This document shows, one piece after another, positions 36,786 through 64,000 of a stretch of DNA of 64,000 bases. This DNA is from Phycisphaera sp. (GTDB taxonomy: Bacteria; Planctomycetota; Phycisphaerae; Phycisphaerales; Phycisphaeraceae), in contig WGMF01000025.1 of assembly GCA_016125215.1 (NCBI GenBank), positions 62,001 to 126,000 on the forward strand, in the 5' to 3' direction. The translations under genes and the position numbers were made by a program. How positions within the stretch are numbered: the stretch's first letter is position 1; every line of letters begins with the position of its first letter. The notes under the pieces are model-generated. The model saw only the letters and a program-made list of their open reading frames with translations. It made no database searches and was not told the DNA's origin.

Positions 36786-38534
36786 ATGGTCCAAGTGTCC
36801 TTGACGAGCTTGAATATCCCACGATTTACTCCGATCATCCTCTTCCTGGTGCTTGCCGCGCCGTGGCTCTCACTCTCGGTCTTGGCCGACGAGGTGGTCT
36901 ATCCCGGTGAGGCCTACGCCAAGCTCGACACGTTCGAGGCGGTGTCGCTGCGGGACGCGGACAAGCTCTACATCAAGAATGACTACCGCGGTGCCTACGC
37001 CGCTTACAAGGCTTACTCGACCGAGTTCCCGCACGGCAAGGCGCTGCCATACGCGCTCTTGCGCATGGGCCGCTGCCTGCACATGGAGGGCAAACGTAAC
37101 ACCGCGATCAAGGCCTACCAGGACGTGGTGGACTACTTCCCCAACGACGTGCGCTACGCCGCCGCGGCGTTGTTTTACATCGGCCAGTGCCACCTCCAGA
37201 ACGGCAACGAGGACCAGTGCCTGGCCGTCTGGGCCAAGATGGTCAAGGACAAAGACTACGTCCAGCAGGCCAACTCGGGCTCGGCGCTGACCGCGCTGGC
37301 CGAGGCGATGCAGAAGCGCGGCGACTTCGAGGAGGCGGCGTCTTACCAGTGGCGCACCGCCGTCAACTTCCGTCAGAGCAACCCCCGCGCAGCCGAGGAC
37401 GCACGAAACAGCGTGGTCTATCACTATGTCGTGCGTTCACCCAATCAGGAAAAGCTGCTGGCATTCTGCAACGAAGTCGGCGGGTTCGGCTGGCAACAGC
37501 GGATCGACAAGCCCGAGGAAAACCCGGTCTACTGGCGGCACGTTCTGAATGTCGCCCTCGGTGCGAAGGTTGAAGAGAAAAAACGCGAAGATGTCTGCCG
37601 GTACTGGGACGCGCAGATGGGCGACCGCTTCACGGAAAACGACAGCCTGCGCGTGGATTGGTTTAACGTCAGGCTGGTCTATGACAAGGACGTGCAGGCC
37701 TGGGGCAAACGGATGTTTGCGCAGTTCGAGCTCAAGCCCGCCACGCTTGATCGTGTCCGCGACTGGTTGGGGAACTTCATGGCCTACCCCGGCTTGAAGA
37801 CCGAGTTTTATCAGAAATACGGTCAACCCCTCGTGGCCGGCTTGAACAACGAGCAGAAGCTTGCGCTGGTCGATTTCCTGCGTCAGCGTGTCCGGATGCC
37901 CGACGAGGCGCTGGTGGTCCTGCATTCCGTCCGCACGCAGGAGATGGACGACGCGGCCCTGCGCCGCTACGCCTTTGTCGTGGTGGACTTCGAGGGCGAA
38001 GAGGCGTTCCTCCGCGCGGTCGAGAAGATGAAAGACAAAACCGCCGCGGCCGGGACACGCTTTGACTTCTACTACGGCAGGGCGTTTCGCAATTCGGATT
38101 ACCAGAATAAAGCCCTCGCGGAGTTGCCCCTGCTCACCAAGGTCTCGGACAACCCGCAGCAGTTCGTCTGGCCCCACGCCACACTCCTGCAGTGGCAGGG
38201 CCAATACGAAGAGGCGATCAAGCTCTACCGCAAAGACAACCGCCAACCCGAATCGAGTTGGCGCATCATCGATTGCCGCGTCGCCATGAAGGACTACGCC
38301 AGCGCCATCCAACTCGCCGGCGAACTCGAATCGCTCGGCGGGGACATCGCCGCCGCCGCCTGCCTCCGCGCAGCAGACATCTACCGTTCCAGCGGTGACA
38401 AGGCCAAAGAGGTCCAGCAACTCCAACTCGTCCTGCGTCGCTACCCCAAGAGCGGCCAATCCAGCACCGCGCACGAACGCCTGGAAAACTACGGCGTTAA
38501 ACTTATTGGCGGTGAATCCAAAGCGGAAGAGTAA
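36786..38534 (+). CDS. Exported TPR protein, first gene of the envelope operon
   Basis: The 582-residue product has a signal peptide (hydrophobic core FTPIILFLVLAAPWLSLSVL, likely cut before ADEVV). The rest is helical with TPR-like repeats. The first are clear (DADKLYIKNDYRGAYAAYKA, YALLRMGRCLHMEGKRNTA, AAALFYIGQCHLQNGNEDQC), resembling CpoB/YbgF or BamD scaffolds, and the last repeats are near the C-terminus. It has no membrane anchor after cleavage and so is likely periplasmic. TPRs bind partner proteins. It is followed after about 80 bases by the next TPR gene and appears to open a twelve-gene series. In-frame starts further upstream at 36657 and 36759 would place the signal peptide internally. 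Confidence 0.82.
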   Translation: MVQVSLTSLNIPRFTPIILFLVLAAPWLSLSVLADEVVYPGEAYAKLDTFEAVSLRDADKLYIKNDYRGAYAAYKAYSTEFPHGKALPYALLRMGRCLHMEGKRNTAIKAYQDVVDYFPNDVRYAAAALFYIGQCHLQNGNEDQCLAVWAKMVKDKDYVQQANSGSALTALAEAMQKRGDFEEAASYQWRTAVNFRQSNPRAAEDARNSVVYHYVVRSPNQEKLLAFCNEVGGFGWQQRIDKPEENPVYWRHVLNVALGAKVEEKKREDVCRYWDAQMGDRFTENDSLRVDWFNVRLVYDKDVQAWGKRMFAQFELKPATLDRVRDWLGNFMAYPGLKTEFYQKYGQPLVAGLNNEQKLALVDFLRQRVRMPDEALVVLHSVRTQEMDDAALRRYAFVVVDFEGEEAFLRAVEKMKDKTAAAGTRFDFYYGRAFRNSDYQNKALAELPLLTKVSDNPQQFVWPHATLLQWQGQYEEAIKLYRKDNRQPESSWRIIDCRVAMKDYASAIQLAGELESLGGDIAAAACLRAADIYRSSGDKAKEVQQLQLVLRRYPKSGQSSTAHERLENYGVKLIGGESKAEE

Positions 38535-38615
38535 CCCACCCACTCACGCATCCCCCCAACGAAAGCCCCGTCTATGGCCAGCACCTTTCCCACAGGCCCC
38601 TCGGTTCATCGCACA

Positions 38616-40925
38616 ATGATCGGGATGCGTCGCTTCACCCGGGCATCGACGGTGCTTGCCGTGTTGGGATCGCTCTGCCTGATTCCCCTTGCGCACGCCC
38701 AGGACGAAAGCGGCGGTGAAGACGCCCCGCGTGAGCGCGTCGCACTCGAAGTCGACCGGCAGGCCAAGCAGCTCTACGACAAGGCCATCGAGCTGATGCA
38801 ATACAAGCAGTACGAGCGCGGCCTGGCCATGCTCGACACCGTCATCCGCGACAACCAGGGCAACATCCTGGGCTACCGCGCCCACATGGCCGAGGGCCGA
38901 CACTTCCTCGAACAGCACAAGTATGAGGACGCCCTGAGCCACTTCCTCCTGCTCACGCGCCTGCTCACGCCCGCGCCCGGCCAGACGCAGACGCCCGAAG
39001 AGGTCGAGCTTTACCACGAGAGCATCTTCAACGCGGGGCTTTCGTATTACCAGTCGGGCCAGTTCGCCGCGGCGTTCCCGATGTTCCGCAGACTCACCGA
39101 GGTCGCACAGAAGAGCGACTGGGCCAACAAGGCGTACTTCTACATCGGGATGAGCCACTACCAGCTCAAGAACTGGAACAAGGCCATCGACGCGCTTTCG
39201 CTCGTGGGCACCGAGGTGCAGGACACCGGTGAAAAGGTCGGCCGCATCGAGATCGGCCAGCGCTTCTACGCCAAGATCGCCGACGCCGATATCCCCGTGC
39301 TCTGGAAGCTCGGTCAGCAGGTCAAGGCCAAGGTCACCGTCAGCAGCGGCGACACCGAGGTGCTCGTCGGCGTGCCCATCCCGGGCAAAGACAGCGAGGC
39401 CCTGACCTCCGCGCCGACGGAGATCGGTCCGCCCAAGCCCAACGACGGCGTGCTCCAGATGGTCGGCGGTGACACGCTCACCGTGACCTATCTCGACGAC
39501 AGCACACAGGACGGACAAAAGGGCGTCGAACGCTCCGGCACCGTCCGCGCGGTCAGCACCGGCACGATCGGCTTTTTCCTCGGCGATTTCTCGACGCCCG
39601 CCTACCTCGCCTTCCCCGGCCAGCCCCAAGCCATCGTGCTCTGCGATGCCGACCTCGACACCTCCAACGCGGCACAAACATACGACGTGACCATCCGCTC
39701 ACTCTACAAAGTCGCCGCGGCCGAGGCCGCCGAGGAGCAGGGCAAAGACGTGCTCGACATCTTCGACGCCCAATCGGAGAACAAAGAAGTCTGGAAGGAA
39801 CGCGACTCCGTCACCGTCAAGCTCACCGAGCAGGGCGAGGGTGACACGATCCGCACCGGCGTCTTCACCGGCAAGGTCAAGCTCGCCCCCGTTGGCGACC
39901 AGGCCCCGAACACCGGCGATGACCAGCTCCAGTGTGACGAGCTCGATGAGCTGGAAGTGACCTACACCGATCAGACGCACATCTACGGCGACAACCCCCG
40001 GACCGTCAGTTCACGCATCAAGGTCTCCGGCTCGGTCAACGCCGGCGTGACGGCCGATCAATACGTCGTCTTCGAGGCGGTGCTCAAGGCCCGCAAGAAC
40101 GCCGTCGAAGCCGAGGCCCTCAAGGGGCTGGGCGAGATCTACAAAGACATGGGCCTCGAAGACCGCGCCGCTCAACGCGCTGACGAAGCCCTCAAAAAGG
40201 TCGACGACATCATCCTCGACCGCGACAAGATCAACAGCGAACTCTTGCAGAAAGCCTTCCAACTCAAGTGGGAGTGTGAGATTCTCAAAGATGACTTCGA
40301 CGCCGCCACCGCGACATGCGAGGCGTTCAATAGGCTCTACCCGCAGTCGGTTCTTGCCGACCAGGCGCTCATGGCGCTGAGCAGGGCTTTGGCGGAGAAG
40401 GGCCAGTACGCCGAGGCCGTGGCGAGCTACAAGCGTGTGCTGGCGCTGCAGAACCCCGTCTCCGCGGCGGAGGCGCAGTACCGCATCGGTGAAGTGCTCC
40501 AGAAGCAGGTCGAGAAGGAATACGAAGACGAACACAACAGCAAGTGGACAGCCGGTGGGCTTGACACCAAGACCGCCAGGGAACGCGCCATGGGCGGCGC
40601 GATCGCGGCCTACAAGGCAACCTACCAGGCTTACCCCGAGAGCGCCTTTGCCGCCAAAGCCCTGCACGAGGTCGTGAAGTATTACGTCGATACCGAAGAC
40701 TTCTCACAGGCCTCCGACCTGCTCGAGCGGGTCTTTTCCGACTTCCCCGACGCGCCGTTCCTCGATGAGATGCTCCTGTCGTGGGCGCAGGTCGCTTACC
40801 GCATGGGGGACACGCAGGTCGCCCAGGCCAAGCTCCAGCAGTTGATCTTCGACTACCCCTCGAGCCAGTACGCGTCCGAGGCCCAGAAGAAACTTGCGGC
40901 CCTCAAGGCGGGTGAAAGCGAATGA
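38616..40925 (+). CDS. Exported TPR protein with central beta-sandwich block
   Basis: This product of about 769 residues has a signal peptide ending LIPLAHAQD. N-terminal TPRs occupy about 40-200 (AIELMQYKQYERGLAMLDTV, FNAGLSYYQSGQFAAAFPMF). A beta-rich block (about 220-470) contains GDTLTVTYLDDST, a VVLCDADLD-like stretch and TIRTGVFTGKVKL. C-terminal TPRs follow to the end (YAEAVASYKRVLAL, LLERVFSDFPDAPFLDEML). This TPR-beta-TPR plan is a small version of the two giants downstream. Its stop codon overlaps the next start by 4 bases, implying coupled translation. The start could also be 38574 or 38625; 38616 leaves a short signal-peptide n-region. Confidence 0.8.
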   Translation: MIGMRRFTRASTVLAVLGSLCLIPLAHAQDESGGEDAPRERVALEVDRQAKQLYDKAIELMQYKQYERGLAMLDTVIRDNQGNILGYRAHMAEGRHFLEQHKYEDALSHFLLLTRLLTPAPGQTQTPEEVELYHESIFNAGLSYYQSGQFAAAFPMFRRLTEVAQKSDWANKAYFYIGMSHYQLKNWNKAIDALSLVGTEVQDTGEKVGRIEIGQRFYAKIADADIPVLWKLGQQVKAKVTVSSGDTEVLVGVPIPGKDSEALTSAPTEIGPPKPNDGVLQMVGGDTLTVTYLDDSTQDGQKGVERSGTVRAVSTGTIGFFLGDFSTPAYLAFPGQPQAIVLCDADLDTSNAAQTYDVTIRSLYKVAAAEAAEEQGKDVLDIFDAQSENKEVWKERDSVTVKLTEQGEGDTIRTGVFTGKVKLAPVGDQAPNTGDDQLQCDELDELEVTYTDQTHIYGDNPRTVSSRIKVSGSVNAGVTADQYVVFEAVLKARKNAVEAEALKGLGEIYKDMGLEDRAAQRADEALKKVDDIILDRDKINSELLQKAFQLKWECEILKDDFDAATATCEAFNRLYPQSVLADQALMALSRALAEKGQYAEAVASYKRVLALQNPVSAAEAQYRIGEVLQKQVEKEYEDEHNSKWTAGGLDTKTARERAMGGAIAAYKATYQAYPESAFAAKALHEVVKYYVDTEDFSQASDLLERVFSDFPDAPFLDEMLLSWAQVAYRMGDTQVAQAKLQQLIFDYPSSQYASEAQKKLAALKAGESE

Positions 40926-43900
40926 AGCGGACCCACGCCCAAATCCGATTGATCGCACGCATGATTCTGGCGGTGCTCTGCCTGAGCGGTGTGGCCCTCG
41001 CGCAATCCACGTTCGACGAGCAGCAGCAATCTGTCTCCACGTCGCTTGTCACGCAGCCCGAGTCAGCCATCCTCAACCTGCTGACCGCCGGCCTCGATGA
41101 GAATAAACCCACTCAGGCCTTCGCCCTGGCGCAGCAGTGGCTCAAGGAAAACATCCCGCAGAACCCGCTCGTGCTCTACCACGCCGCCAGGTCGGCTGAA
41201 CTCTCCGGCGAGTGGAACGACGCGGTCGCGCTCTACCAGCAATACCTCAAGCGGGCCGACCTCAAGAGCGACACCGCCTCCGACGCGGTCATGGCGGTTT
41301 ATGTGCTGCTGACCCAATACCTCCTCGACGATGAGGGCGCCTACACCTATGCCCGAACAGAGGGGCACCGTCTTGTGGTCATCCCACAGGCCCGGCAGTT
41401 CGACCGCGGGTTCCTCGACCGGGCCGAGTCACGAAACGACGTGGAGGCGGTGGCCGCTCGGTTGTTGGCGCTGGTGCGTGCGGGTTTGTCCAACGACCAG
41501 CTCCAGGCCCTTCACGATTCGGATTTCCATTGGTTGCTCGACGCCGTCGCCGCATGGCGCATCGACGAAAAGCGCTTCAAGCCCGGCTTCGTCGAGACGG
41601 TGAACGAACTGGCCCAAGCCATCGGGTTTGATAAAGAGCTGGGCCTGCTCATGGCGTGGGAGCTGGCCGCCAAGGCTTACAACATGAACGCGATCGACGG
41701 CAAGCCCGGCGAACCCCCGATCGCACAGGCCGCGGCGTTGCTCAAGGCAAGTCCAAGTTACGCGCTGCGTGTGCAGACCGACTGGGCGGGCGGCAGTCGA
41801 GGCAGGTATTACCGGGACGACCCGAAGAAATACTGGCCGCTCGACCTCGACGCCAAGCTCGCACCCGTTAAGTCCGCGGTTCAGTCGCTCGATGAAACCG
41901 ACCGGGCGTGGTTCTACCGTTCGTGGGACGCGGGCTATTACGACGGCGGGCCGATGGCCGTCACCCCCGAACAGGCACGGGCGCTGACACTTGGGAACCC
42001 CGACCTGTTCAATCGCAAGACCGCGCCGAGGTTTGCGTTTGATTGGAATCGCTTGAGCCTTGAAGACGCCGGCAAGCTTGCCCCGCTGCTTGTGAATAAC
42101 CCAAGCCCCGAGGCGTCCCTGATCCGTGCGATGGTCGCGGCAGGCGAGAAGAAGGATTTTGACAAAGCGGTCGACGCGCTGCTCACGACCGAGGCGTGGC
42201 GGTTGTCCGAACAGGACCTCGACGGGAGAAGCGCCGACGCCCTTTGGTATGCGTGTGGCCGACCCGGTAACGTCCAGACGCGCAACGCCGCGATCAAAAA
42301 ATCCAAAGCGATCGCAGATCAGGTCCGGGCCGGCGACGTCAAGAGAGGCGACCCCGCTGACAAGCGCATCGCGGCGTTCAAAAAACTTCTGAGCGACTAC
42401 AACTCGGCCCAGCCCAGGATACCCGGGGTTTACAGCCGGCTTGTGAGGGTGTTACAGGCCACTCCCGAACTGTTGCCCGAACTGCTCCACGACACGAGTG
42501 TCCCGACCCGGATGCTCGTGCGTGACGCGATGGAGTTGGGAATAAGTGGCCAAGGCAAGCCGTGGGACGCCTACGAAAACGCATTGAAGATCGACACCGA
42601 CCGATACAGCCCGTGTTTCAACGAGCAGGTCCGTCGCTACTACGGCGGACTGGGCCGATTGAAGAATGACAAAGACAAGTACGTCCCGCACCCGCTCGAG
42701 CCGGTGCTGCGCGAAGCGCTAGCCGATCAGCTCAAGCGTGGCCAGGTGGAAACCTGGCTGGTCCTGGCGTGGCTCAACACGCAGTTCCCCGAGGGCAACG
42801 CGGATTCGGTCAAGCTCGCCCAAGCCCTGTTGCAATCACCGACTTACAAAACGTTGCCCGTCGAAGCCCGTTACGGATTGCGCGAATGGTTCGGCAAGGT
42901 CTGTCTCTCGCCGACCCAACAGGCGGTCCTTGCCACCACGGACCCGGCGGTCGTGTGCCAACCCCTGACCTCGCTGCCCGAGAATGCCGACGCCGCGGCC
43001 GTGGCCCATGCGATGGAGCAGACGATCAAGGGCCTGCGTGAGTCGCCCACCCGCCTCGAAGTGCTCGGCTTGAACAGACTGGCCAAGATCGACGGCAAGG
43101 TCTTCACCGACCCGAAAGTCCTCGACAAAGTGATCGAACTCGTCGGGTCGCAGCGGACGTTTGACACCGACACCGACTTCGACAACCGACTGCTGACCGT
43201 CATCTCAAACCGTCGTGATGCGCGAGAACTGCACCTGGTCGCGCCGCACCTGTGGCGGTTTACCGAGGTCTACATGCGATCGTTGCCCGCCATGATCGAC
43301 CTGGCCGACGCTCTGGCCAAGGACCAGCCCTCGGCGGCGCACGCCTGGGCGATCTGCGGCCTGCGGACGTTCGGCCGCTACAGGAGCGGGCACCACTACT
43401 TCGATAACCAGACCGACATCCCCCGCCTGACCTCGATCCGAGGTAAGGCCGACATGGCCATGGGGCTGATCGATATCCCCGTCCCGAAGACCCACCCCGC
43501 GTACGGCATCTACAAATCCCAGGCGGAATTCGTCATCGGTAATCACGACAGCGCGATCGAGTTATACCGCGCCAGCGCCGATCAGCTCGCGCCCGTGTTG
43601 CGCAAGCTCACCGTGCCCTACCTGCTCTGGGTCCTTCAATACACAATCGATCAGCACGACCAGGCCCATCAGGAGGAATTGGCCAAAGCGCTGCTCGCGT
43701 GGATGAACGAATCCCAGTCGGCCTTCACCCCCGAGCAGCGCGTGGCCCTGGAAATCGCCTACGGCGACATCGCGGTGCAGCGCGGCCTGTTGCCCGAAGC
43801 CATCAGGCTCTTCACCCGCATCGAGAACAACCCGCAGTACGACTCCGTGTTTACCCGGCACACCGCCACGCTCCGTAAGGCGCTGGTCCAGCGGATGTCG

Positions 43901-46900
43901 GGCGATTACGACGGCGCCTTGCAGACGCTGACCGAACTCGAATCGCTCAATGTCCCCAGCCTGACCACACAGGCCCACTATGCGCGTGCGGAAGTCTTCT
44001 ACGCAATGGAGGACTACGACGCGGCCGGTGAAGAGGTCAAGGCCGTCCTCGAACGCGACCCCAACTTCGCCGACGCCACGATCCTGCTCGGGCGGGTCCA
44101 ACTCAAGCGCCAGAAGCTCATCGACGCCACGGAGCTTGAGGTCGGGTCGGCGACGAGCCAGGAAAACCTCGTGCCCGGCGAGGACCTCAAGGTCACGCTT
44201 AGCGACCCGACGCTGGGCGTCTCGGGTGGGGCAACCGATATCGAGGTCGTTGTCTGGGCCACATCCGGCGACCGCGAACTCGTCCTGCTCAGGCAGTTCG
44301 GCGACCAGAAGACCAAGTACCGCGGCGTGGTGAAGACCGCGCTGGGCAAGCCCGTGCCCGGCGACCAGACGCTCCAGGTCGTCGGGGATGACGAGGTCTT
44401 TTACGCCTACTCCGAGGGCTTCCGTGCCAAGATGAAGAACCTTGGCGAGAACCGCGGCGGGCCGATCAAGATCGCCTCGGACGCCATCATGATGGCGTCG
44501 GCAAGACGCTTGCTTACCGAGAACGAGCAGCGCGTGGCGGACATGCGCGCCGCGACCGAGGCGCTCGAGTCCAAGCACGAGGGCGACATGCGCAACGCCG
44601 ACCCCGAACTCGTTGCGCAGCTCAAGGCCCAGGCCGCCCAGCGCGCCCGCAACGCGGCGCTGCAGGCGCGCATCAAGCCCGGCAACCCGATCCACGTCCG
44701 CGTGATCGACCCGGACAAGGGACGCACGTCCGGCATCGATGAACTGAATGTCAGCGTCAGCGCATCGAGCGGCGACACGATCGGCCAGGTGACCCTCAAG
44801 GAGACGGATGCGTATTCGGGCGTCTTCGAGGGGCAGGTCCCCACCGCGCCGGCCCAGGCGCTGGCCACCGCTTCCTCCACCGAGGCCGGCCGAAACCCCA
44901 ACATGGTCATCAGCCCCAACACCGACTACCCCGCGTGGCGGCCCGTGCCCACCGAAGACGACGGCCACTACCTCACCGTCGACCTCAACGACAACGCTGC
45001 GCTCGGGGATATGCACGTCGAGGCTTCGGACAAGGGGTACACGCTCAAACAATTCCTGATCCGCACCGCGGTGAACCCCGACAACTGGACCACCGTGGCA
45101 AGCTACCCCCATGCGAAGATGTTCATCGAACACCCCTGGCAACCGAGCGTCACGGTCGTCAACGAAGCGGGGCGCAACGCGCACTACGGGGCTCGGTCCG
45201 TCTACGAGTTTTACAACATCCAAAAACAGATGGCTTCCGGTTGGCTTGCCGATCCGGACATGGCCCTGTCCAGGAATGTGGCCGGCCCGTCCGACGCGCT
45301 CCCGGAAGCGGTGCTCAAGGACAACAAGTGGCTTCGCTCCGGACGTTGGACCAATCCCGCGGTGGTCTACCGTTTCAAGGCTTATTTCTATGAACCGACC
45401 TCCGTCAACAGGCGTTTTGCCCTCACGCTCGGGCCTCACCAATACAAACCCGCCGAGAATAATCAAAACACCAAGCCCGAATTCCTCATCGCTGTCGACG
45501 GACGGATCATCACTTCCAAAGATATCAACAAGCTCCAGGGCGAGGTCAACCTCAGGCCCGGCCTCCACCGTTTCGAGGTCTGGGCCACGGGATGGATCGA
45601 GGCCATCGGCTTTGGCAGAAAGGTCCAACTTCAAACCAACCTCGACCAACCCGACACGCTCGTGGACTGCCCCGATTCGTTCTTTGATCCCTCCACGTTC
45701 CCTCCCGGTCTGCTGGAGCACCGCAACGCGCCGGCCCAGGTCTCACCGAGCAAGGACGGCAAGGGTTTTGATGTCCGCTTCGCGCCCGACTCCAGTGCCA
45801 GGCTCATCCGCATCGACGTGATCGACCACGAGGGCCCCGTGCCGTCGATCAACCACGTCACACTCACGCAGCCGGATGGCACCAGGCTCCTGCCCGTCCC
45901 CGAAGACTTTGCCAAGCTCCGCAAGAACGACACGCTTGAGATTGTCACCGGCGACCGCGTGGCCGTCCGTTACGTGGACGACCGTTTCGTCACCAAAGGC
46001 AAGCAGAACCACGAGCGATTCCTCGATGTCTCCTACACCGACGGGGGCGTCGAGTTTGCCGACATCGAGCCGCGCCTTGACTACCGGGACAATGCGAAGA
46101 AGCCCTATCACGAGACGCTGCTGCGTTTCCGATACGACGAGCCGTTGTCGCTGGTCGTCAACGACGCGGACATGGATGTCTCGGCCGAACCGGACACCGT
46201 GACGTGTACGCTCGTCAACAGCACCGGCCAGAAGCGCGAGATTGTTGCCCGGGAGACCGGCCCCTCCACCGGCGTCTTTCGCGCGTGGATCACACCCGTC
46301 GCGGGGCAGACGGACGAACCCGACAAGATCCACGCCGACCCGGGCAGCGCACTGACACTGACCTACCGTGACCACGATAACCTCTCGCCCGGCGTGCCAT
46401 ACGACCGGGTGGCCACCATCACTCACGCCGCGCCCTCCATCCCCCGCATCGAAGTCGGCCACATGACCGTTACGCCACTGGAATCGGCCGACGCACAATT
46501 CGTCGCGCAGGTGTCGGGCTACCAGCCGCTCAACGAAAGGTTCGACCCGATCGGCGATTTCACACGGAACCCGTCTCTCACGCGAACGACCGACCGCATC
46601 GCGCCGAGGTATCTCATCAGCCAATCTTTTTTGACCGAGTCCGACGCACCGGAAGGGGGCCTTGCCCTGGTTGAGGGCCGACACGCATTGATTGAAATTG
46701 TGGCACCGGCGCTTGCGCTGCGTGAGGGTTCGTCCGTGGATGTGTATGTCCAGACCGACGCCGGCCTCGCCGCGTTCGGGGGCAACGCACAGGCGTCTGA
46801 CTTCAACACACAGGTCCCCGGGACACTGGTCTTCACCGCCACACTCGGCAAGCTTGAGCGGTCCATGATCCCCGAGCGGGGGGGCTACGTGGCCACCGTC

Positions 46901-48529
46901 TCGGACCCCAGGGGGAGCGATTACGAGCAGGCCCGCAACAGCCTGAATAACGGGCGTTTTCGGCTTGTTGTGCCGCTGGTCTCCGGTCCCTTGCCGAGGA
47001 TCAGCTACGCCAATCGCGAAGAGATCGCCGAGTCACGCCAGCCTTATCCGGGTGGCCTGGTGGTCAAGGCCGGTGAGAACATCCACATCGGCGTGGCCTA
47101 CACCGACGGGCAGGGCAACAAGCGTTGGACCACCGCGTCAGCCAAGGTCATCACGCGGCCTGTGCTCGACGTGATGGACGAGCAATACCACTCGCCGGTG
47201 ACCTCGGCCTACCTGGGCCAGTCGCTGCACATGCGCGTCGTGGATTTTTCGCAGGACACCACCGATGAGCGAGACGAACTGAGCGTCTACACCGCATCGA
47301 AGACCGGTGCCAAGCACTACGTCAAACTCCGTGAGACCGACCCCCACTCGGGCGTCTTCAAAGGGGCGTTCGCGCTGAGCTACGCCAACCAGACGGACAA
47401 ACCCGACGACGCAGCGGACGGCGGTGAGGCCTACGACGTGGCTGCGCTGGGTTTCCCCGTGCGTTACGGCGACATCCTGGCTGCGCGTTACACCGATCCC
47501 TCGGGGCGACAGACTCCCGTGGTTTACGTAGAGGTTGCCAAGGGTTCGGACGGTTTGGTGACGCCATTCACCAAGCAATACGACGACAACGACACCGCGG
47601 CTAAGACGCAGTTTGCCATGGCCGAGAGCTATCTCGAGGTGGCACGTCGTCACCGTGACATGGGCGACGAAGAACAGGCACAGCGTGAGTTCGCCTCTGC
47701 CAGGCAGATGCTCGCCGCCACCGTGGCGACCTTCAGCGACCCCGAGACGCGGGCCCATGCCGAGTACCTCCTGGGCACATTAACGATGGAAGACGCCCAG
47801 GCCACCGCGGACAAAGACCTTCAGGCCGACCGCTACCGCGCCGCGATGGCGCGCTTCGTGAACATCACCGGCAACACGCCCAACGCGGAATACGCATCCA
47901 AGGCGCAGTTCCAGATCGCGGTGATCTACGAACGCCTCGGTGAGCCGGATATCGCGGCGCAAGAGTACGTGAAGCTGGCCTACAAGTACCCCGACTCGCC
48001 CAACCTCGCCACCGCCATGGCGCGACTGGGCACGCACTTCCAGCGCAAGGCCACCGAGATCGAAGAGCGTGCCAAGCCTCTGCTGGCCCAGACGGACAAC
48101 AAGGACGCACAGTTCGACGGCCAGGCGCTCCAGCAACAGGCCCGTCAGGAATACTTCAAAGCGGCTCAGGTCTTTGAGCGCTTGCAGTCGCGCTTCCCCG
48201 ACAACGACCTGGCCGGGAAAGCCGGCCTGTTTGCCGGGCAGATTTATTTCCGGGTGGAGGATTACCGCTCGGCGGTCCGCGTGATGCAGACCATCATCGA
48301 CAACGAAAACTACGACGGCGTCACGCTCCGTGCCCAGGCGATGTATTGGGCCGGCCGCTGCCACGAAAACCTCAGGGAGGTCCTGCCGGCTTACGCGCTT
48401 TACAAACGCATCACCTACGACTTCCCCGAGAGCAAGTGGGCCGCCTACGCCCGCGCCCAGCTCTCGACCGAAAAACTCCTCACGCTGGACCAGAACATCG
48501 AGATCAACCGACTGGAGGAGGGCCGATGA
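40922..48529 (+). CDS. Giant exported TPR/beta-sandwich protein A (2535 residues)
   Basis: A signal peptide (cut near residue 27, GVALA/QST) is followed by about 1050 mostly helical, TPR-like residues. From about 1080 to 2160 come beta-sandwich blocks that share a motif of the form ET-x2-SGVF or HTGVF, seen at about 1290 (KETDAYSGVFEG), 1775 (RETGPSTGVFRA) and 2140 (RETDPHSGVFKGAFALSY). A C-terminal TPR region follows at 2215-2500 (AMAESYLEVARRHRDMGDEE, QFQIAVIYERLGEPDIAAQEY). No membrane anchor, lipobox or cell-wall sorting signal is seen, so a periplasmic or surface-attached location is inferred. It is a full-length paralogue of the next gene and its ends overlap both neighbours by 4 bases. 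The molecular function is unknown. Confidence 0.85.
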   Translation: MKRTHAQIRLIARMILAVLCLSGVALAQSTFDEQQQSVSTSLVTQPESAILNLLTAGLDENKPTQAFALAQQWLKENIPQNPLVLYHAARSAELSGEWNDAVALYQQYLKRADLKSDTASDAVMAVYVLLTQYLLDDEGAYTYARTEGHRLVVIPQARQFDRGFLDRAESRNDVEAVAARLLALVRAGLSNDQLQALHDSDFHWLLDAVAAWRIDEKRFKPGFVETVNELAQAIGFDKELGLLMAWELAAKAYNMNAIDGKPGEPPIAQAAALLKASPSYALRVQTDWAGGSRGRYYRDDPKKYWPLDLDAKLAPVKSAVQSLDETDRAWFYRSWDAGYYDGGPMAVTPEQARALTLGNPDLFNRKTAPRFAFDWNRLSLEDAGKLAPLLVNNPSPEASLIRAMVAAGEKKDFDKAVDALLTTEAWRLSEQDLDGRSADALWYACGRPGNVQTRNAAIKKSKAIADQVRAGDVKRGDPADKRIAAFKKLLSDYNSAQPRIPGVYSRLVRVLQATPELLPELLHDTSVPTRMLVRDAMELGISGQGKPWDAYENALKIDTDRYSPCFNEQVRRYYGGLGRLKNDKDKYVPHPLEPVLREALADQLKRGQVETWLVLAWLNTQFPEGNADSVKLAQALLQSPTYKTLPVEARYGLREWFGKVCLSPTQQAVLATTDPAVVCQPLTSLPENADAAAVAHAMEQTIKGLRESPTRLEVLGLNRLAKIDGKVFTDPKVLDKVIELVGSQRTFDTDTDFDNRLLTVISNRRDARELHLVAPHLWRFTEVYMRSLPAMIDLADALAKDQPSAAHAWAICGLRTFGRYRSGHHYFDNQTDIPRLTSIRGKADMAMGLIDIPVPKTHPAYGIYKSQAEFVIGNHDSAIELYRASADQLAPVLRKLTVPYLLWVLQYTIDQHDQAHQEELAKALLAWMNESQSAFTPEQRVALEIAYGDIAVQRGLLPEAIRLFTRIENNPQYDSVFTRHTATLRKALVQRMSGDYDGALQTLTELESLNVPSLTTQAHYARAEVFYAMEDYDAAGEEVKAVLERDPNFADATILLGRVQLKRQKLIDATELEVGSATSQENLVPGEDLKVTLSDPTLGVSGGATDIEVVVWATSGDRELVLLRQFGDQKTKYRGVVKTALGKPVPGDQTLQVVGDDEVFYAYSEGFRAKMKNLGENRGGPIKIASDAIMMASARRLLTENEQRVADMRAATEALESKHEGDMRNADPELVAQLKAQAAQRARNAALQARIKPGNPIHVRVIDPDKGRTSGIDELNVSVSASSGDTIGQVTLKETDAYSGVFEGQVPTAPAQALATASSTEAGRNPNMVISPNTDYPAWRPVPTEDDGHYLTVDLNDNAALGDMHVEASDKGYTLKQFLIRTAVNPDNWTTVASYPHAKMFIEHPWQPSVTVVNEAGRNAHYGARSVYEFYNIQKQMASGWLADPDMALSRNVAGPSDALPEAVLKDNKWLRSGRWTNPAVVYRFKAYFYEPTSVNRRFALTLGPHQYKPAENNQNTKPEFLIAVDGRIITSKDINKLQGEVNLRPGLHRFEVWATGWIEAIGFGRKVQLQTNLDQPDTLVDCPDSFFDPSTFPPGLLEHRNAPAQVSPSKDGKGFDVRFAPDSSARLIRIDVIDHEGPVPSINHVTLTQPDGTRLLPVPEDFAKLRKNDTLEIVTGDRVAVRYVDDRFVTKGKQNHERFLDVSYTDGGVEFADIEPRLDYRDNAKKPYHETLLRFRYDEPLSLVVNDADMDVSAEPDTVTCTLVNSTGQKREIVARETGPSTGVFRAWITPVAGQTDEPDKIHADPGSALTLTYRDHDNLSPGVPYDRVATITHAAPSIPRIEVGHMTVTPLESADAQFVAQVSGYQPLNERFDPIGDFTRNPSLTRTTDRIAPRYLISQSFLTESDAPEGGLALVEGRHALIEIVAPALALREGSSVDVYVQTDAGLAAFGGNAQASDFNTQVPGTLVFTATLGKLERSMIPERGGYVATVSDPRGSDYEQARNSLNNGRFRLVVPLVSGPLPRISYANREEIAESRQPYPGGLVVKAGENIHIGVAYTDGQGNKRWTTASAKVITRPVLDVMDEQYHSPVTSAYLGQSLHMRVVDFSQDTTDERDELSVYTASKTGAKHYVKLRETDPHSGVFKGAFALSYANQTDKPDDAADGGEAYDVAALGFPVRYGDILAARYTDPSGRQTPVVYVEVAKGSDGLVTPFTKQYDDNDTAAKTQFAMAESYLEVARRHRDMGDEEQAQREFASARQMLAATVATFSDPETRAHAEYLLGTLTMEDAQATADKDLQADRYRAAMARFVNITGNTPNAEYASKAQFQIAVIYERLGEPDIAAQEYVKLAYKYPDSPNLATAMARLGTHFQRKATEIEERAKPLLAQTDNKDAQFDGQALQQQARQEYFKAAQVFERLQSRFPDNDLAGKAGLFAGQIYFRVEDYRSAVRVMQTIIDNENYDGVTLRAQAMYWAGRCHENLREVLPAYALYKRITYDFPESKWAAYARAQLSTEKLLTLDQNIEINRLEEGR

Positions 48530-54500: not shown

Positions 54501-55914
54501 CGTGATCCTCGACGCCATGGACGGTCGATACCATCAAACGCTCGCCAGCGCGTTCGTCGGTGAGAAGGTCTATCTCCGCCTGATCGCCCCCGAACTCGAC
54601 AAAGGCCCCGGCCGCGACATCACCACCGTCCGCCTGCAGGCCCAAAGCGGGGTTGCGGTGGATTACGAACTGCGTGAGACCGACGTCCACACGGGCGTGT
54701 TCAAGGGTTCGTTCACCCTGAGCTACGCAACCACCCCGTCCGAAAGCCCCACGAGTACGCAAGAGCGTCCCGCTCAGCCGCAACCCCAGCCATCCGTGGT
54801 GTTGCACGGCTTGCCGGTGCGCTACGGAGACCTTGTGACCGTCACGTCACCCCGCCTTGGCAACGAAGCGCCCCCGACCGTATCGCTGAGCGTCAACCTC
54901 GGGTCTGACGGATTCATCGAACCGTTCAGCAAACAATACAGCGAAGACGCCAGCGCGATCCAGACGACCTTTACTCTGGCCGAGTGCTATTTCGAGTTGG
55001 CCAAGCACCACCGCACGATGGGTCAGGAAAGCCTGGCACGGCGCGAGATGGGCCACGCCGAGAAGCTCCTGGCCGAGGCGGTCGACGCGCACCAGGATTC
55101 GGAGATGAAGGCCCACGCCGAGTACCTGCTGGGCAACCTCGCGCAGGAATACGCCGACCTTTCGAAGAACGACCAGTCCAAGCGGGAGATGTACCAGACC
55201 GCGTTGGCACGGTTCTCGAGCATCCCGCTGGATTATCCTGATACCGAGTTTGCACCCAAGGCGCAGTTCAAAAAAGCGCTGGTCTATGAGAAGCTCGGTC
55301 AGGTCGACATCGCGGTCGAGGAGTACGTCAAGCTGGCGTACAAGTATCCCAACCACGAGTTGATCCCGTCGGTGATGTCGAGGCTCGGTGCCTACTTCCA
55401 GGACCAGGGCCTGGCCCACAAGACCACAGCCGAGGGCCTCGAAGAAAACAAGAACGACGCCGAGGCACAGGGTGAGGCGATCAAAGAACGCGACCTGGCC
55501 ACCAAGGAATACCTCAAGGCGGCGCAGGTCTTCAAGAAGCTCCTCGAGCGTTTCCCGACCGATCCGCTTGCGGGCCTCGCGGGTTTGAGGTCGGCCCAGA
55601 ATTACATGAGGGCGGGCCACTTCAACGAAGCCATCGCCGGCTTCAAGCGCGTCGTCGACAACGAAGAGTACGACGACAAGGAAATCCGCTCCCAGGCGTT
55701 ATTCTGGTCCGGGATCAGCCACGAGAGACTGGGCGACTTGAAAACCGCGTACCAGGAATACCGCCGGGTAACTTTCGATTTCCCCGACAGTGTCTGGGCC
55801 AAACAATCGCGCGGCCGACTTGCGGACCCGGCGTTTGCGAAGATCATCCAAGACGAAAATACCGTGCGCGAGCGGTTGCTCGAGTCCTTGAAGGAAGAGA
55901 GAAAGAAGCGATGA
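48526..55914 (+). CDS. Giant exported TPR/beta-sandwich protein B (2462 residues), paralogue of A
   Basis: ATG 48526 overlaps the previous stop and gives a good signal peptide (MKYRFGSIVCVLMLIAAAAQ, cut after ASA). The open frame extends 60 codons upstream but without signal or similarity. The plan matches protein A: helical repeats to about 1040, beta blocks with TETGTHTGVFEA (about 1258), LETGPHTGEF (about 1715) and RETDVHTGVFKGSFTLSY (about 2055), and C-terminal TPRs (from 2140, TLAECYFELAKHHRTMGQES). Stretches such as FYAYSEGFRAKMKNL in A and YGYSKRFRAKMKDL here align directly. It lacks any visible membrane anchor. It is probably a duplicated structural or cargo component of the same envelope machine. 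Confidence 0.85.
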   Translation: MKYRFGSIVCVLMLIAAAAQASALDDRVKLFKNGLSTPDETQLVALLKSAVDERRSAEALAVAQVWLNTQPITRPDAMFYAGLACEDAGQWLTAIGYYQRLLQLPKPDPKLAGPAVDGVYRLLLGALGNENDAYLFMRNEGNRVRGFGRAVRYDRWFLDKAREKRDLIAVSDRLAAFSADPSTPWEPYADDLDWLCFELEKFRQEGSDVYASAMQLAQAKRTPTVAAARLRWAATVMPYNQKLDELRNANSPVDPKLSDAPLAAAEQLMAADPERGAFTVADGWGVEYDNGRSGNCAMRFNVEGPRKLDQLLAVVPKLSVDRQDDLLGYRFAQGRVRFDPALVMEFLSKNPTVLASLNALDAADVIFFDKDLPTVEQAQFLAPHLARNPNPRAALIRAIASSRSVEFGKVAAAMVASELWRFENPRAAIELAWRNCTVKEAKLEDVLKSNSDVPAPYPQLLKQVAKGADSKQRLAAFKTLDDDLKSQAPKTPAVFVLWDQLFANASNADTVAMLTEVAPDTASSDGDYLFRRALDQSRIGNRELRWQAVLDWPHFKFNRPQIINLTGDWLARLQVILEKQMQSGDLSPTLFGFWLQSVDPEKADAKKFIRTLSQLPVYDKLDRAYRVTAADDQHFGLLTSPYRSALTPRTVSRELLELKDGADAAAVEAALDAVLKRASTAPQPVTVIGLRPVLALTTWSPQLRDKLLTLLGDNAPLGDYPERQGYEDLIVRLCKELRKEGQWEKLQAYSEGLWRAAQATDDARYYRGVQALADFAEAALDADRASTALSVARGVSASPLGRALASNNNEQVTTLAARLNRVEGKASIALGIIDIPVDERDPAYPIFKAQAEFATGRLDSAWDLYNRQPDRLTPVLRRLTVPFCLWLLDRDLEAQQSDRAEALIREMTVWSREAVGAFTPEQEARLKIAYADASFQKGSLQTARAWYRRVADAQEYRGTAIGYEAELRCVRVDRASRDFPSALEILDKLMLVRDEALRQRVHFARAEVFYDQARYADAFAEVSTVLRRDPGHADALILMGKAQLEMRKLVDASEIELGVTRDQRVIVPGESIKINLNDPSLNITGVAAEIEVEVRTKSGDVENVMLHQFGDEKSKYRAEVPTQLGARQPGDKVLQVLGRDEITYGYSKRFRAKMKDLPPDPTGVITVASDAQLDASAGAFPPRKGERKLDLDELGVSTAQKALGTRRVRPGNQIYVRVTDPDQSKTDGIDRIIASVETSSGDKIQKMLLTETGTHTGVFEATVPTGRAQALAFATESAPGRDPNMVLSAEAYPGWAGEVGSKVSEHMFTIDLNDNVSLGAMTIDCDDASQSLTRFVVQTSMNGEAWTTRARFPDDPAPWDGRPQVTSFPTYGKAIPISKLEDRKLPEDWLYKMDIASLRAETPYSALYVPNITDMNIDLASGGHPAYGVLIRYRALFYQSAAAVRTFQLEGFTPTQTLFLIDGQSAGDESETGLTIQRELKPGLHTIEVWHEESRVDLVKRKPAILCDVAGQENLQPCADAMFNPASFPAGVRDAIAGATRITADPGNPNRFAVAFGNNTQGRLIRLAIVDHKGAAPAIHKVLLTDRSGIKRLPVADDYQKLRTNDRLEVLPGDTVTVHFDDDNTVNPRRASQQARLSVAYNTATITAAFLNYINTPEGPEQVLEPIRRFKMDNAVAVVINDPDMDQTPEADRVQFIVRSSDGSEATLDALETGPHTGEFIRSVFPVTGGVKEEAQVHVPPGGTLTARYRDEENLDPGIPTDRTVTVEHAYFNTPVLAVYDTISQPLAPNPSTKPNTQPEGTGDRVQEVVQPRRALSYRYLDPAHENTQAGAVIGSALRVDVIVPHLAYSNSSTLVAYVQTQAGRDAYRAQNKDVLTEPFDVRVPGTMKLVATPSTRAATLVPAGYVVREDAKPPTNKPALEEGRFAFSVPLELGDVPSRSFATQDADDLPSSLKPEALAVRPGDKVYVGFACLDPDGKPIWLTHEFTLTGDVILDAMDGRYHQTLASAFVGEKVYLRLIAPELDKGPGRDITTVRLQAQSGVAVDYELRETDVHTGVFKGSFTLSYATTPSESPTSTQERPAQPQPQPSVVLHGLPVRYGDLVTVTSPRLGNEAPPTVSLSVNLGSDGFIEPFSKQYSEDASAIQTTFTLAECYFELAKHHRTMGQESLARREMGHAEKLLAEAVDAHQDSEMKAHAEYLLGNLAQEYADLSKNDQSKREMYQTALARFSSIPLDYPDTEFAPKAQFKKALVYEKLGQVDIAVEEYVKLAYKYPNHELIPSVMSRLGAYFQDQGLAHKTTAEGLEENKNDAEAQGEAIKERDLATKEYLKAAQVFKKLLERFPTDPLAGLAGLRSAQNYMRAGHFNEAIAGFKRVVDNEEYDDKEIRSQALFWSGISHERLGDLKTAYQEYRRVTFDFPDSVWAKQSRGRLADPAFAKIIQDENTVRERLLESLKEERKKR

Positions 55915-56324
55915 GCATGGGCACAGACGGCACAGTCCATTCCATGAACACGCTCGAACGTGAACTGCTGCGCGGGCAGGTCGGTGAGGAATCCCCCCGC
56001 CTGATGTTGCGCACGGGGACGCGGGTCGACGCCGGCTCGTGGCTGCGCGGCGCGCCGCTCTGGCTGTGCGTCATGTCAGATGACCTGGTCCTGTTAGCCG
56101 TCTCACGCAGGCGTTATGTTCAGAAAATCCCGCTGGACCACTGCCGCGCCAGCCGATACTGCGCCATGACCGGGGAGTTGATCCTTGAGCCGGTCGATAC
56201 GCTCCGCTATCCCAGGCTCGCGCTGGAGCCCGCCGACGCGCTGCGTGCGTTGCAAATGATCGCTCAACCCCCCGACGAATCCCCACCACACCCAACCGTT
56301 CACATGGAGAACGACCGTGCTTAA
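55911..56324 (+). CDS. Small conserved-looking protein of unknown function, between giant B and ExbB
   Basis: This 137-residue product lacks a signal peptide or membrane helix. The core (GAPLWLCVMSDDLVLLAVSRRRYVQKIPL onward in part, about 45-115) looks like a small beta-sheet domain with a closing helix (ADALRALQMI), somewhat PH-like. It is probably cytoplasmic. Its start overlaps giant B by 4 bases and its end overlaps the ExbB-like start by 8, so it is well embedded in the operon and may bind the cytoplasmic face of the motor. The identity is unknown. Confidence 0.6.
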   Translation: MSMGTDGTVHSMNTLERELLRGQVGEESPRLMLRTGTRVDAGSWLRGAPLWLCVMSDDLVLLAVSRRRYVQKIPLDHCRASRYCAMTGELILEPVDTLRYPRLALEPADALRALQMIAQPPDESPPHPTVHMENDRA

Positions 56325-56961
56325 ACACCTCCTCAGCGGCGGCAACCTGATGGTGCCGCTCATGCTCTGCAGCCTCGTGAGCCTGGCCGTGGTCTACGAC
56401 CGCTGGGCCGCGTTCCGTGCCAACCGGAAGATCGATACGCGGTCGTTGCGCGCCCGTGTGCTGTCGCACCTGCGCAACGACGACATCCGCGCCGCGATCG
56501 GAGAATGTGAATCGACGCGCGGTCCGCTGGCGTCGGTGCTCCTGGCAGGCCTACGCTCATACGAACAGTTGCACACCAAGGGCGAGAGCGCGGAGATGAT
56601 GCGCATGGTCGTCGGGCAGGTGATGGAGGACTACGCCGTGCAGGCCATGAGCGTGGTCAACAAACGCCTGGACATCCTCACGACCGTGGCCACGGCCGCA
56701 CCGCTCTTGGGCATGACGGGCACGGTCACGGGCATGATTACCTCGTTTTCCGGTCTTGCGGCGGCTGGCAGCATCTCGGGCAGTGGCGGTGAGGTCGCGG
56801 CCGGTATTGCCGAGGCGCTGGTCACCACGGCGGTCGGCCTCATCATCGCGCTCTCCGCAGCCATCCCCCAGAGCCTCTTCAACCGCTGGAGCGACGACAT
56901 CGAACTGGAGATCGAAGAGTCTTCGACCGAACTGATCGAGCACATCCTCGTCCACCATTAA
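56317..56961 (+). CDS. MotA/TolQ/ExbB-type proton channel subunit
   Basis: The 214-residue inner-membrane protein has three helices (about 10-28, 118-142, 163-186) with a cytoplasmic loop between the first two. The family hallmarks are LDILTTVATAAPLLGMTGTV at 118-137, with TGMITSF, and GIAEALVTTAVGLIIALSAA at 163-182. Together with ExbD-type partners such proteins form a pentamer around a dimer that converts proton flow into movement of a periplasmic transducer. It starts with GTG overlapping the upstream gene. Homology cannot separate TolQ, ExbB and AglR roles. Confidence 0.95.
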   Translation: MLKHLLSGGNLMVPLMLCSLVSLAVVYDRWAAFRANRKIDTRSLRARVLSHLRNDDIRAAIGECESTRGPLASVLLAGLRSYEQLHTKGESAEMMRMVVGQVMEDYAVQAMSVVNKRLDILTTVATAAPLLGMTGTVTGMITSFSGLAAAGSISGSGGEVAAGIAEALVTTAVGLIIALSAAIPQSLFNRWSDDIELEIEESSTELIEHILVHH

Positions 56962-56985
56962 GCTCGGGGTACACGGGAACAGGCG

Positions 56986-57818: not shown

Positions 57819-57911
57819 CCCCCGGCCCCCGGAAGCCGACCCCCGCAAGTCCATACACCCATCCACCCAGACGCCCAACCCCGTGCAGCTCCAAACCAAG
57901 GTGACGACACC

Positions 57912-58448
57912 ATGAATGACAAGAAAACCCCATCCCCCACGGTTCAAGACGTCGATCAGGTCAGCCCCGATTCGCTGCTCAATGACTTCCACGGCAAGCC
58001 GTTGTTCAGAGTCATCCTGTTCACGGTGGTCGTGCATGTGCTGTTCATCGGCGTGTTCAGCGTCGGCTACATCAAGGAGCAGGTCTTCGGTTCCAGCACC
58101 GCGTCCATGAACAGGGAGCAGAAACTGGATTCGGCGGTGAAAGAGGGGACCGCTGCGCTGCGCGAGATCGCCCAGCGCTACGACCTGAACCCCGAAGACC
58201 TCAGCGGCCAATTCGGGGGACGCACACAGAGCATCAGCACCCCCGACACCTCCAATACGCCTTCCAACCCGCAAGACGCCGCCACACCTCCTGACACTGG
58301 CTCAACCCAGCAGGCTGCTCCCGAACAACCCACCACAGAACAGCCCACCTCTGAAATCGAAAAGACCCTCCAGCACAAAGAGCCAGGCCCGGAAGTGCCC
58401 AAACTCCCCTCCGACGAAGACGACCTCTTCGCACCCAAGGCCCCTTGA
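57912..58448 (+). CDS. TonB/TolA-like single-pass transducer candidate
   Basis: The 178-residue protein has a cytoplasmic N-terminus, one membrane helix at 31-53 (LFRVILFTVVVHVLFIGVFS), a charged stretch (60-100) and a Pro/Thr/Gln-rich periplasmic tail. In the helix, Thr38 and His42 have the same i, i+4 spacing as Ser16 and His20 of TonB, which couple to ExbB/ExbD. The extended Pro-rich tail is also TonB-like. No globular TonB C-terminal domain is present, so it may hand on force to other operon products. The gene lies 93 bases after the ExbD pair; that gap is C-rich and otherwise empty. Confidence 0.6.
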   Translation: MNDKKTPSPTVQDVDQVSPDSLLNDFHGKPLFRVILFTVVVHVLFIGVFSVGYIKEQVFGSSTASMNREQKLDSAVKEGTAALREIAQRYDLNPEDLSGQFGGRTQSISTPDTSNTPSNPQDAATPPDTGSTQQAAPEQPTTEQPTSEIEKTLQHKEPGPEVPKLPSDEDDLFAPKAP

Positions 58449-58463
58449 TTGCGTGACAGTCCG

Positions 58464-60089: not shown

Positions 60090-60118
60090 GCGGTCTTGTG
60101 CCTTGTGAGTGAACGACG

Positions 60119-64000: not shown

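Follow-up and report, generated by a model that had tools for sequence, protein, structure and literature searches.

A conserved ExbB/ExbD motor block with giant TPR proteins in Phycisphaera and other PVC bacteria, a possible polysaccharide-hauling machine of the cell envelope

What does an ExbB/ExbD-type motor do when its genes are framed by genes for giant exported proteins and no receptor gene is recognised among them? This question is raised by a block of twelve genes in the DNA of Phycisphaera sp. (GenBank assembly GCA_016125215.1, contig WGMF01000025.1). The window, that is, the whole stretch of 64,000 nucleotides analysed here, corresponds to G000:C16:62001-126000 (G, C and L numbers denote genomes, contigs and loci) and belongs to a genome of 4.04 Mb in 58 contigs that is 98.25% complete; the G+C content was even along the window (0.61-0.64). 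An earlier note on this DNA had read the block as a complete force-generating envelope system. Our results showed that the core of the block recurs in other genomes, indicating that it is not a chance assembly, and that it probably encodes a force-generating machine. That this machine is a conserved device of the Planctomycetes-Verrucomicrobia-Chlamydiae (PVC) group which uses the proton-motive force to haul polysaccharide by means of the giants is the reading developed below, and it is offered as a tentative one.

The twelve open reading frames (ORFs) are named as in Table 1 and all lie on the + strand within positions 36786-64000 of the window, the last one (PDZ) ending 1.3 kb beyond it at C16:127292. 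Recomputation of the ORFs and their junctions reproduced the gene order, the single strand and the six overlaps that had been described. The junctions T2/G1, G1/G2, G2/S, D1/D2 and M3/PDZ overlapped by 4 bases each and S/ExbB by 8, and the others were gaps of 39 (T1/T2), 24 (ExbB/D1), 93 (D2/Ton, the largest), 15 (Ton/DUF4159) and 29 bases (DUF4159/M3). Pfam recognised tetratricopeptide repeats (TPR) in all four exported proteins, two of which indeed exceed 2400 residues, together with MotA_ExbB, two ExbD domains (2.7e-18 and 6.9e-18), DUF4159, PDZ and HEAT. Export signals and membrane helices of the block proteins were predicted by hydropathy plot alone. The Pfam and NCBIfam scans of the twelve genes recognised no TonB C-terminal domain, TonB receptor, TolB, Pal, MotB or any outer-membrane protein, in agreement with the earlier note, which had reported that receptor, TolB, Pal and MotB were missing.

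The motor proteins carried the residues expected of an ion-driven machine. Thr136 and Thr171 of ExbB were Thr in 66 of 66 aligned rows, the helix residue Asp24 of ExbD1 was found in 67 of 68 rows (the remaining row was a gap), and the helix residue Asp21 of ExbD2 in 69 of 69. We take these Thr and Asp residues to be functional channel positions. MotA_ExbB and ExbD domains with such residues are features of 5:2-type ion-driven motors, and the view that the ExbB/ExbD motor looks intact is well supported by them. None of the motor proteins of the block reached the NCBIfam equivalog cut-offs for TolQ/TolR or ExbB/ExbD: the ring protein scored 103.9 bits with tolQ (cut-off 221) and 57.9 with exbB (cut-off 206.2), and the two ExbDs scored 36.8 and 20.9 with ExbD_1 (cut-off 152.95) and 33.7 and 28.1 with tolR (cut-off 127.3).

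Table 1. Genes of the block, with positions in the window.
Feature	Position	Strand	Basis
T1, exported TPR protein, 582 aa	36786..38534	+	TPR_6 1.3e-15
T2, exported TPR protein, 783 aa	38574..40925	+	Pfam TPR, NCBIfam
G1, giant exported protein, 2535 aa, TPR stretches, G2 paralogue	40922..48529	+	Pfam, alignment
G2, giant exported protein, 2462 aa	48526..55914	+	Pfam, profiles, structure model
S, small protein, 137 aa, no predicted helix or signal	55911..56324	+	no known family
ExbB/TolQ motor subunit, 214 aa, GTG start	56317..56961	+	MotA_ExbB 9.7e-24
ExbD1 (D1), 140 aa	56986..57408	+	Pfam ExbD, conserved Asp24
ExbD2 (D2), 137 aa	57405..57818	+	Pfam ExbD, conserved Asp21
Ton, single predicted membrane helix, low-complexity stretch, acidic C-terminal end	57912..58448	+	position, motif
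DUF4159 protein, 541 aa, five predicted membrane helices	58464..60089	+	Pfam DUF4159 1.1e-31
M3, three predicted membrane helices, 394 aa	60119..61303	+	no family match
PDZ, PDZ/DUF6288/HEAT exported protein, 1330 aa	61300..64000, on to G000:C16:127292	+	Pfam

Two proteins encoded downstream of the motor look like transducers. The Ser and His of the TonB/TolA helix motif are spaced x3. TonB and TolA bind the motor ring through this motif with Ser, His, Leu and Ser, as described in passages of PMC12204202. The predicted helix of Ton in the window carries T-x3-H-x7-S. In relatives, Ton was located by its position between ExbD2 and DUF4159 and not by sequence likeness. Among 67 loci with ExbD2 near DUF4159, 60 had an intervening ORF with a predicted helix, and this helix contained [STA]-x3-H in 58, [ST]-x3-H in 43 and H-x7-S in 59 of the 60; L123, one of the failures, was probably represented by the wrong ORF, and another Ton match exists in that locus. 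The acidic C-terminal end reads DEDDLFAPKAP in the window and is EEDLF-like in most relatives of the same cassette type (type I, defined below), and many Ton proteins end in acidic peptides that differ by type, EEDLFK, GISIEDTN and DDLSLD among them (uncounted). Ton, the protein called TonB-like in the earlier note, had no Pfam or NCBIfam match, hence no TonB C-terminal domain was found in it, and its relative in L130 likewise had no Pfam match.

The DUF4159 protein has S219-x3-H223 in the last of its five predicted helices, followed by G-C-x3-Y-x2-P-x-G-x-G and the C-terminal DUF4159 domain. Helices were counted by hydropathy prediction in relatives of at least 480 aa and at least 150 bits that had been recruited by the whole protein or the domain and not by the helix; [ST]-x3-H was present in 56 of 74 last helices, whereas of the 294 helices elsewhere in these proteins 2 had it. 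Viewed by alignment column, 60 of 84 rows have His at residue 223, 22 have a gap and 2 another residue; at residue 219, Ser is found in 64 rows and Ala in 10. By this SHLS-type [S/T]-x3-H motif both Ton and the DUF4159 protein look like transducers, and Pfam gave no VWA match at E 0.1 in either. The structure model of the DUF4159 protein (pLDDT 79.8, pTM 0.51) comprised the membrane helices, a linker modelled with low confidence (250-317) and the C-terminal domain, which matched Hoch_4089 (4i66; Foldseek 2.1e-9; Z 23.3, 1.8 Å over 187) and, lower down, class I glutamine amidotransferases and a ThuA-like protein; rows of the second structural comparison cover parts of the DUF4159 and G2 models, not the whole. 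The domain belongs to PF13709 by sequence and has the solved fold of that family by model, and it appears glutamine-amidotransferase-like. A likeness to the N-terminal domain of IFT52 (Z 8.5) was set aside as the shared fold of this kind. The TonB-like orientation of the last helix would place the DUF4159 domain in the periplasm. In one relative (L166:8768-11077), the DUF4159 protein has an N-terminal FHA domain (7.1e-15).

To examine the conservation of the block, named genomes were scanned with the alignment of the DUF4159 proteins, which gave 231 confirmed stretches; the counts come from the best 80 of these, and only loci with enough sequence were counted. The locus profiles were built from the same loci, so their sensitivity is circular and the positions are not. 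ExbB preceded DUF4159 in 60 of 63 loci and both ExbDs did so in 62 of 65. Of 61 testable loci, 55 had a linked giant, and the figures were 43 of 63 for S and 47 of 72 for M3; PDZ/DUF6288 was found in 18 of 53 testable loci, every one of the window's type, and T1 or T2 in 11 of 53, many flanks stopping inside the giant. The comparison of gene neighbourhoods, which the earlier note had proposed as its check, thus came out in favour of a conserved core order. A planctomycete-specific system was rejected, as the best 80 of the 231 loci include Verrucomicrobiota, Kiritimatiellota, Lentisphaerota and Planctomycetota, and the block may also occur outside PVC; L133 among the 80 is titled Nealsonbacteria, possibly a binning error.

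Several cassette types were distinguished. Type I, that of the window (L092-L121), reads G2-S-ExbB-ExbD1-ExbD2-Ton-DUF4159-M3-PDZ as far as the contigs reach, with 53-71% identity to the window in the best DUF4159 segment, and is complete from T2 to PDZ in two further genomes (G433 and G389). The nearest relative of the window had 72% identity over ExbB plus DUF4159. The planctomycete type I rows (the window and L092-L095) form a single clade (98/93). Transfer from Verrucomicrobiota was considered, since a quick tree nested the window clade within the verrucomicrobial type I rows, but in a careful tree those 21 rows make up one side of a branch (78/87); a transfer, in whichever direction, is a mere possibility. 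Rubritalea profundi SAORIC-165 (L106) carries the block, with G2 reading as two ORFs; its genome (G331) has further DUF4159 copies at C1:1652724-1653746 and 847472-848277, with an in-frame stop or in pieces, which are probably decayed. A more distant set (Lentisphaerae, Kiritimatiellae, Planctomycetota and others) runs from the giant to M3 without PDZ, and a third type reads giant-T1-T2-motor-Ton-DUF4159. A further type, called the second type here, was seen in four stretches of the Akkermansia family, three of them with giant-ExbB-ExbD-ExbD-DUF4159-T1 and L179 also with T2; its Ton-like ORF between ExbD and DUF4159 was matched at E 0.014 only. Among the 145 genomes of this family, full-length type I DUF4159 was found in 17 and second-type DUF4159 in 28, the latter by reading of the list (E 1e-133 to 1e-77), with at most 10 candidates scored per genome and neighbours viewed in four. 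The two types co-occurred: 11 of the 17 genomes with type I also had the second type (p 1.2e-5 without a correction for kinship).

Within the class, strong matches to the giant profile (E <1e-20) were found in at least 6 of 297 genomes including that of the window, two candidates being scored per genome, so that this is a lower bound; at E 0.001 there were matches in 100 of 297, mostly short and in the TPR part. The order was giant-giant-T1-T2-ExbB-ExbD1-ExbD2-Ton-DUF4159 in G187, T2-giant-ExbB-ExbD-single-helix protein-DUF4159-T1 in G119, and T2-giant-ExbB-ExbD-second ExbD-like ORF-single-helix protein-DUF4159-TPR-like ORF in G049 (the last items by eye). G142 carries T1-T2-G1-G2 up to a contig end, and G156 was too fragmented for its neighbourhood to be read. 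In L124, L129 and L170, a DUF4159 ORF of 283-306 aa stands alone, without motor genes in the available stretch, although its sequence is close to that of the machine. As side observations, a second set (T2-like, ExbB, two ExbD) follows the first cassette downstream of DUF4159 in L149, and a 1723-aa ORF with no Pfam match at 1e-5 adjoins the cassette of G119 (L075:8971-14139).

The recurrence of these parts also bears on the possibility that the genes are inherited together without forming one machine, the motor serving another target and the TPR scaffolds being unrelated to it. The order and copy number of the genes vary, and in L165 the giant comes after DUF4159. The motor occurs with no giant in the available stretch of L128, L153 and L155, L178 lacks a giant upstream, and only some types have S, M3 and PDZ. 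Nevertheless, the set of T1, T2, giant, ExbB, ExbD, Ton and DUF4159 is found again in loci with a rearranged order. Co-inheritance without shared function hardly accounts for this, and we regard this explanation as very improbable. Two arguments rather speak for the motor, transducers and giants as a single machine: rearrangements have left the core families side by side, and the motor-docking motif is retained in two different proteins.

The giants were analysed as the candidate moving parts of such a machine. G1 and G2, with 33% identity over about 2600 aligned columns, are full-length paralogues as judged by their alignment. The TPRs detected in G2 lie near residues 75-104, 980-1055 and 2178-2421, and its middle is rich in beta structure; TPR ends flanking a beta middle was the general plan of the giants. 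All of 20 giants examined had TPR_6, 8 of them F5/8 type C (best 2.6e-9) and 5 a NedA-like galactose-binding domain; G2 of the window scored 20.2 for F5/8 type C by sequence, under the Pfam cut-off of 28.2. The model of the G2 middle (residues 1056-2160) had a pLDDT of 83.6 and a pTM of 0.67. In the second structural comparison, this model matched CBM32-5 with galactose (4a41; Z 15.8, 2.2 Å, 126 residues, model 213-531), galactose oxidases (Z 14-15) and the surface-layer (S-layer) protein 8c8k (Z 16.4, 4.4 Å, 224 residues). The top Foldseek matches were 8c8k and then macroglobulin and complement chains, and positions 1667-1741 of the giant profile also matched 8c8k, which is from Nitrosopumilus (3.3e-4). 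By its modelled fold, the G2 middle holds a CBM32/discoidin-like domain, putatively sugar-binding, and S-layer-like immunoglobulin domains.

The TPR parts pointed to another explanation. The C-terminal TPRs of the giant family matched CpoB (6g5s, 1.3e-7) and BamD (5waq, 5.9e-6) by profile against the PDB, and T2 was over the NCBIfam cut-offs for tol_pal_ybgF (95.1 vs 90.1) and OM_YfiO/BamD (82 vs 81.4). Together with a ring protein that is nearer to TolQ than to ExbB and the absence of any TolB_N match in the whole window genome, this would fit a maintenance system like Tol-Pal, in which the giants and smaller TPR proteins stand in for Pal, TolB and CpoB while the cell grows or divides and the outer membrane is pulled wallward by the motor. 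We consider this unlikely. CpoB/YbgF-like TPRs are common to both systems, whereas the block has two ExbD genes and giants and no OmpA/Pal match among its proteins, and the presence of strong giants in the class and of full-length type I DUF4159 in the Akkermansia family is patchy and accessory-like. The TPR scores are also unspecific: T2, with 783 aa, passes the BamD cut-off as well as that for YbgF/CpoB. T2 of G119 also aligned with a middle stretch of the giant profile. T1 had phmmer matches in 13 of 80 related loci, and its position varied with cassette type, after DUF4159 in some and before T2 in others.

The block was also compared with known systems. Gene clusters of PVC and other bacteria that combine TPR and TolQ with a TolR pair and a transducer of the vWA kind were published in 2025 without an assigned function (PMC12204202, section 8). 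Both those clusters and the block have a TPR gene, one TolQ-like gene, adjacent paired TolR-like genes and a non-TonB transducer with SHLS-type His. The C-terminal domain in the block is DUF4159 and not vWA, and the block adds the giants, a second small transducer, M3, S and PDZ/DUF6288; section 8 of that paper names neither DUF4159 nor giants. The earlier statement that no named system has this composition is to be qualified, TPR-TolQ-2xTolR-vWA clusters being a similar arrangement already in print. Our literature search, with preprints and most subscription journals outside it, found no description of a block with a DUF4159 transducer and giants, nor of the names DUF4159 and DUF6288. A motor with TPR partners is of a known kind.

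The Agl-Glt gliding complex of Myxococcus xanthus has a similar parts list, with ExbB-like AglR, ExbD-like AglQ and AglS, the giant TPR protein GltI (4132 aa) and TonB-like GltG with an FHA domain (passages of PMC3169522). The block shares with it one ExbB-like and two ExbD-like proteins, a TonB-like protein and TPR proteins including a giant, and the FHA domain fused to DUF4159 in L166 recalls that of GltG. A motor of this Agl-Glt-like kind would shift the giant TPR proteins laterally and drag surface adhesins for motility or adhesion. The likeness lies in the parts list. No Glt-like outer-membrane part was recognised in the block, DUF4159 is absent from the passages on Myxococcus, and many carriers are not known to glide; this explanation is quite unlikely in our view.

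With no outer-membrane gene recognised in the block, the motor might instead energise a transporter encoded elsewhere, as a PVC importer of the Ton or Sus type, and the giants would then be a store or chaperone that does not move, maybe as at the MUL1 locus of Akkermansia. We take MUL1 to span about Amuc_0543-0550 and to include ExbD-like genes. Amuc_0546 is listed among transporter genes, by list order as the biopolymer one, in the relevant passage of PMC11480725. According to PMC13174399, Verrucomicrobiota accumulate glycan periplasmically, which would also suit the polysaccharide reading given below; MUL1 is likened there to the Sus system, and glycan accumulation in A. muciniphila is said to depend on mul genes. 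MUL1 synteny is reported absent in aquatic Akkermansiaceae (PMC13174399), yet records titled Akkermansiaceae carry the block (best 80 of 231 loci). MUL1 of A. muciniphila was considered as the same locus as the block and not adopted as such. The giant middle profile matched 2 of 14 small genomes of the family, which had been chosen by size. The block shares motor families and a single-helix transducer with x3-spaced His with the Ton system but has no receptor and no detectable TonB C-terminal domain in Ton, and its motor lies far under the ExbB/ExbD equivalog cut-offs. The ordinary Ton genes of the genome are at the C33 locus, on another contig, with a TonB-dependent receptor and a secretin near different ExbB/ExbD genes. 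This receptor, used as a query to check whether receptors adjoin such motors elsewhere, had no match in the 80 loci (one query, of limited reach). We regard an importer of this type as improbable.

The reading preferred here is that the motor pulls on the giants and that the giants hold polysaccharide. It takes the genes, their linkage, the motor residues and the helix motifs from sequence and the folds from models; the heterodimer, the contacts, the topology, the force on the giants and the cargo are proposals. ExbB would form the ring and ExbD1 and ExbD2, probably as a heterodimer, the axle. Ton and the DUF4159 protein would bind at the side as transducers and contact the ring via the TonB/TolA-type helix with x3-spaced His. 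The acidic peptide of Ton and the DUF4159 domain would hold the TPR parts of the giants and the smaller TPR proteins, a cycle of proton flow would pull and release the glycan-bound giants, and long polysaccharide would most likely be drawn into or along the periplasm. The earlier proposal of a force-generating envelope system is in line with the conserved block, the intact-looking motor, the transducer-like helices and the linked giants; its word "complete" was not borne out, as no outer-membrane component was recognised, and neither was its view of the giants as spanning the envelope. Given the machine, a polysaccharide role has close to an even chance. Four points make polysaccharide the likelier cargo: the CBM32-like fold, the presence of sulfatases in the genome (47 match rows), the taxa, and a gene run of Fibrobacter succinogenes linked to cellulose, FSU_2397-2403, in which two TPR genes are numbered just before ExbB-ExbD-ExbD-TonB and which is more abundant on cellulose (passages of PMC6851124). 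This run is similar by gene number (FSU_2399 was not seen in the passages) and is annotated with the TonB family, with no DUF4159 or giants in those passages. The cargo step is the weakest of the argument and could be wrong, and the Tol-Pal-like and Agl-Glt-like explanations remain beside it.

Several observations weigh against the preferred reading. No glycan enzyme was recognised within the block. Foldseek gave no CBM32 chain among the top 50 for the G2 middle, CBM32 appearing only in the second comparison, and CBM32-type folds also bind non-sugar ligands. The His of the DUF4159 protein was out of register in 24 of 84 rows (22 gaps), and its S/T-x3-H motif was lost in L145-L147, L081 and L171; these loci also encode the single-helix protein, so one transducer may suffice. 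L178 (G433:C1:1262000-1281900) has ExbB-ExbD-ExbD-DUF4159-T1 with no giant or T2 in 8.8 kb upstream, and in the Akkermansia family the giant middle profile found no giant in 12 of the 14 small genomes chosen by size. Beyond PDZ, nothing recurred at 17 loci (two with no sequence left) save in the close relatives L099, L103 and L104. About 4.4 kb past PDZ on the same strand lies a microcompartment gene set (L009:7659-15055, G000:C16 about 131658-139057) with a BMC shell protein, phosphate propanoyltransferase (PTAC), acetate kinase, aldehyde dehydrogenase and class II aldolase. In the window genome this set speaks for a role in polysaccharide handling, but a general link to it was rejected, as microcompartments were found in 8 of 17 type I genomes of Akkermansiaceae and 42 of 128 others (p 0.28) and the set did not recur at the other loci viewed.

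Among the accessory proteins, S had no known family by Pfam or NCBIfam and M3 no Pfam family match. M3 relatives with long C-terminal extensions were found at L131:11446-14559 and L127:11464-14268, the former with weak zinc-ribbon matches. The PDZ protein also contains DUF6288 (2.1e-90), the Pfam scan covering the first 900 of its 1330 aa, and a 1315-aa relative in L096 likewise has PDZ, DUF6288 and HEAT. The window genome has eight MotA_ExbB matches. That at C12 lies among flagellar genes, as judged by eye. The C27 locus (L087, G000:C27:34000-53900) encodes ExbB, ExbD, a TPR protein of 836 aa and, with S-x3-H near its start, a vWA protein of 589 aa (3.3e-14), and by sequence it appears close to the published vWA transducer class. 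L083 (G000:C45:48000-66000) has ExbB, two ExbD matches, TPR proteins and one weak vWA match (0.0037). Elsewhere in the window, a 512-aa ORF at about 9332-10870 has a start that is flagellin-like by eye.

The uptake of very large polysaccharides by planctomycetes, verrucomicrobia and their relatives is a question for ocean carbon and for gut glycan use, and the block is a concrete conserved candidate for its engine. In its widest form, the proposal would be a PVC-wide, proton-driven machine that hauls polysaccharide with glycan-binding giants and two transducer kinds per motor, one of them a new class with a TonB-type helix and the glutamine-amidotransferase-like DUF4159 domain, and that is the missing engine of "selfish" uptake without SusCD; we consider this form rather unlikely. 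As a candidate engine, the block would supply a further class of transducer that is neither TonB nor TolA, the second after the one published in 2025, and would suggest a role for DUF4159.

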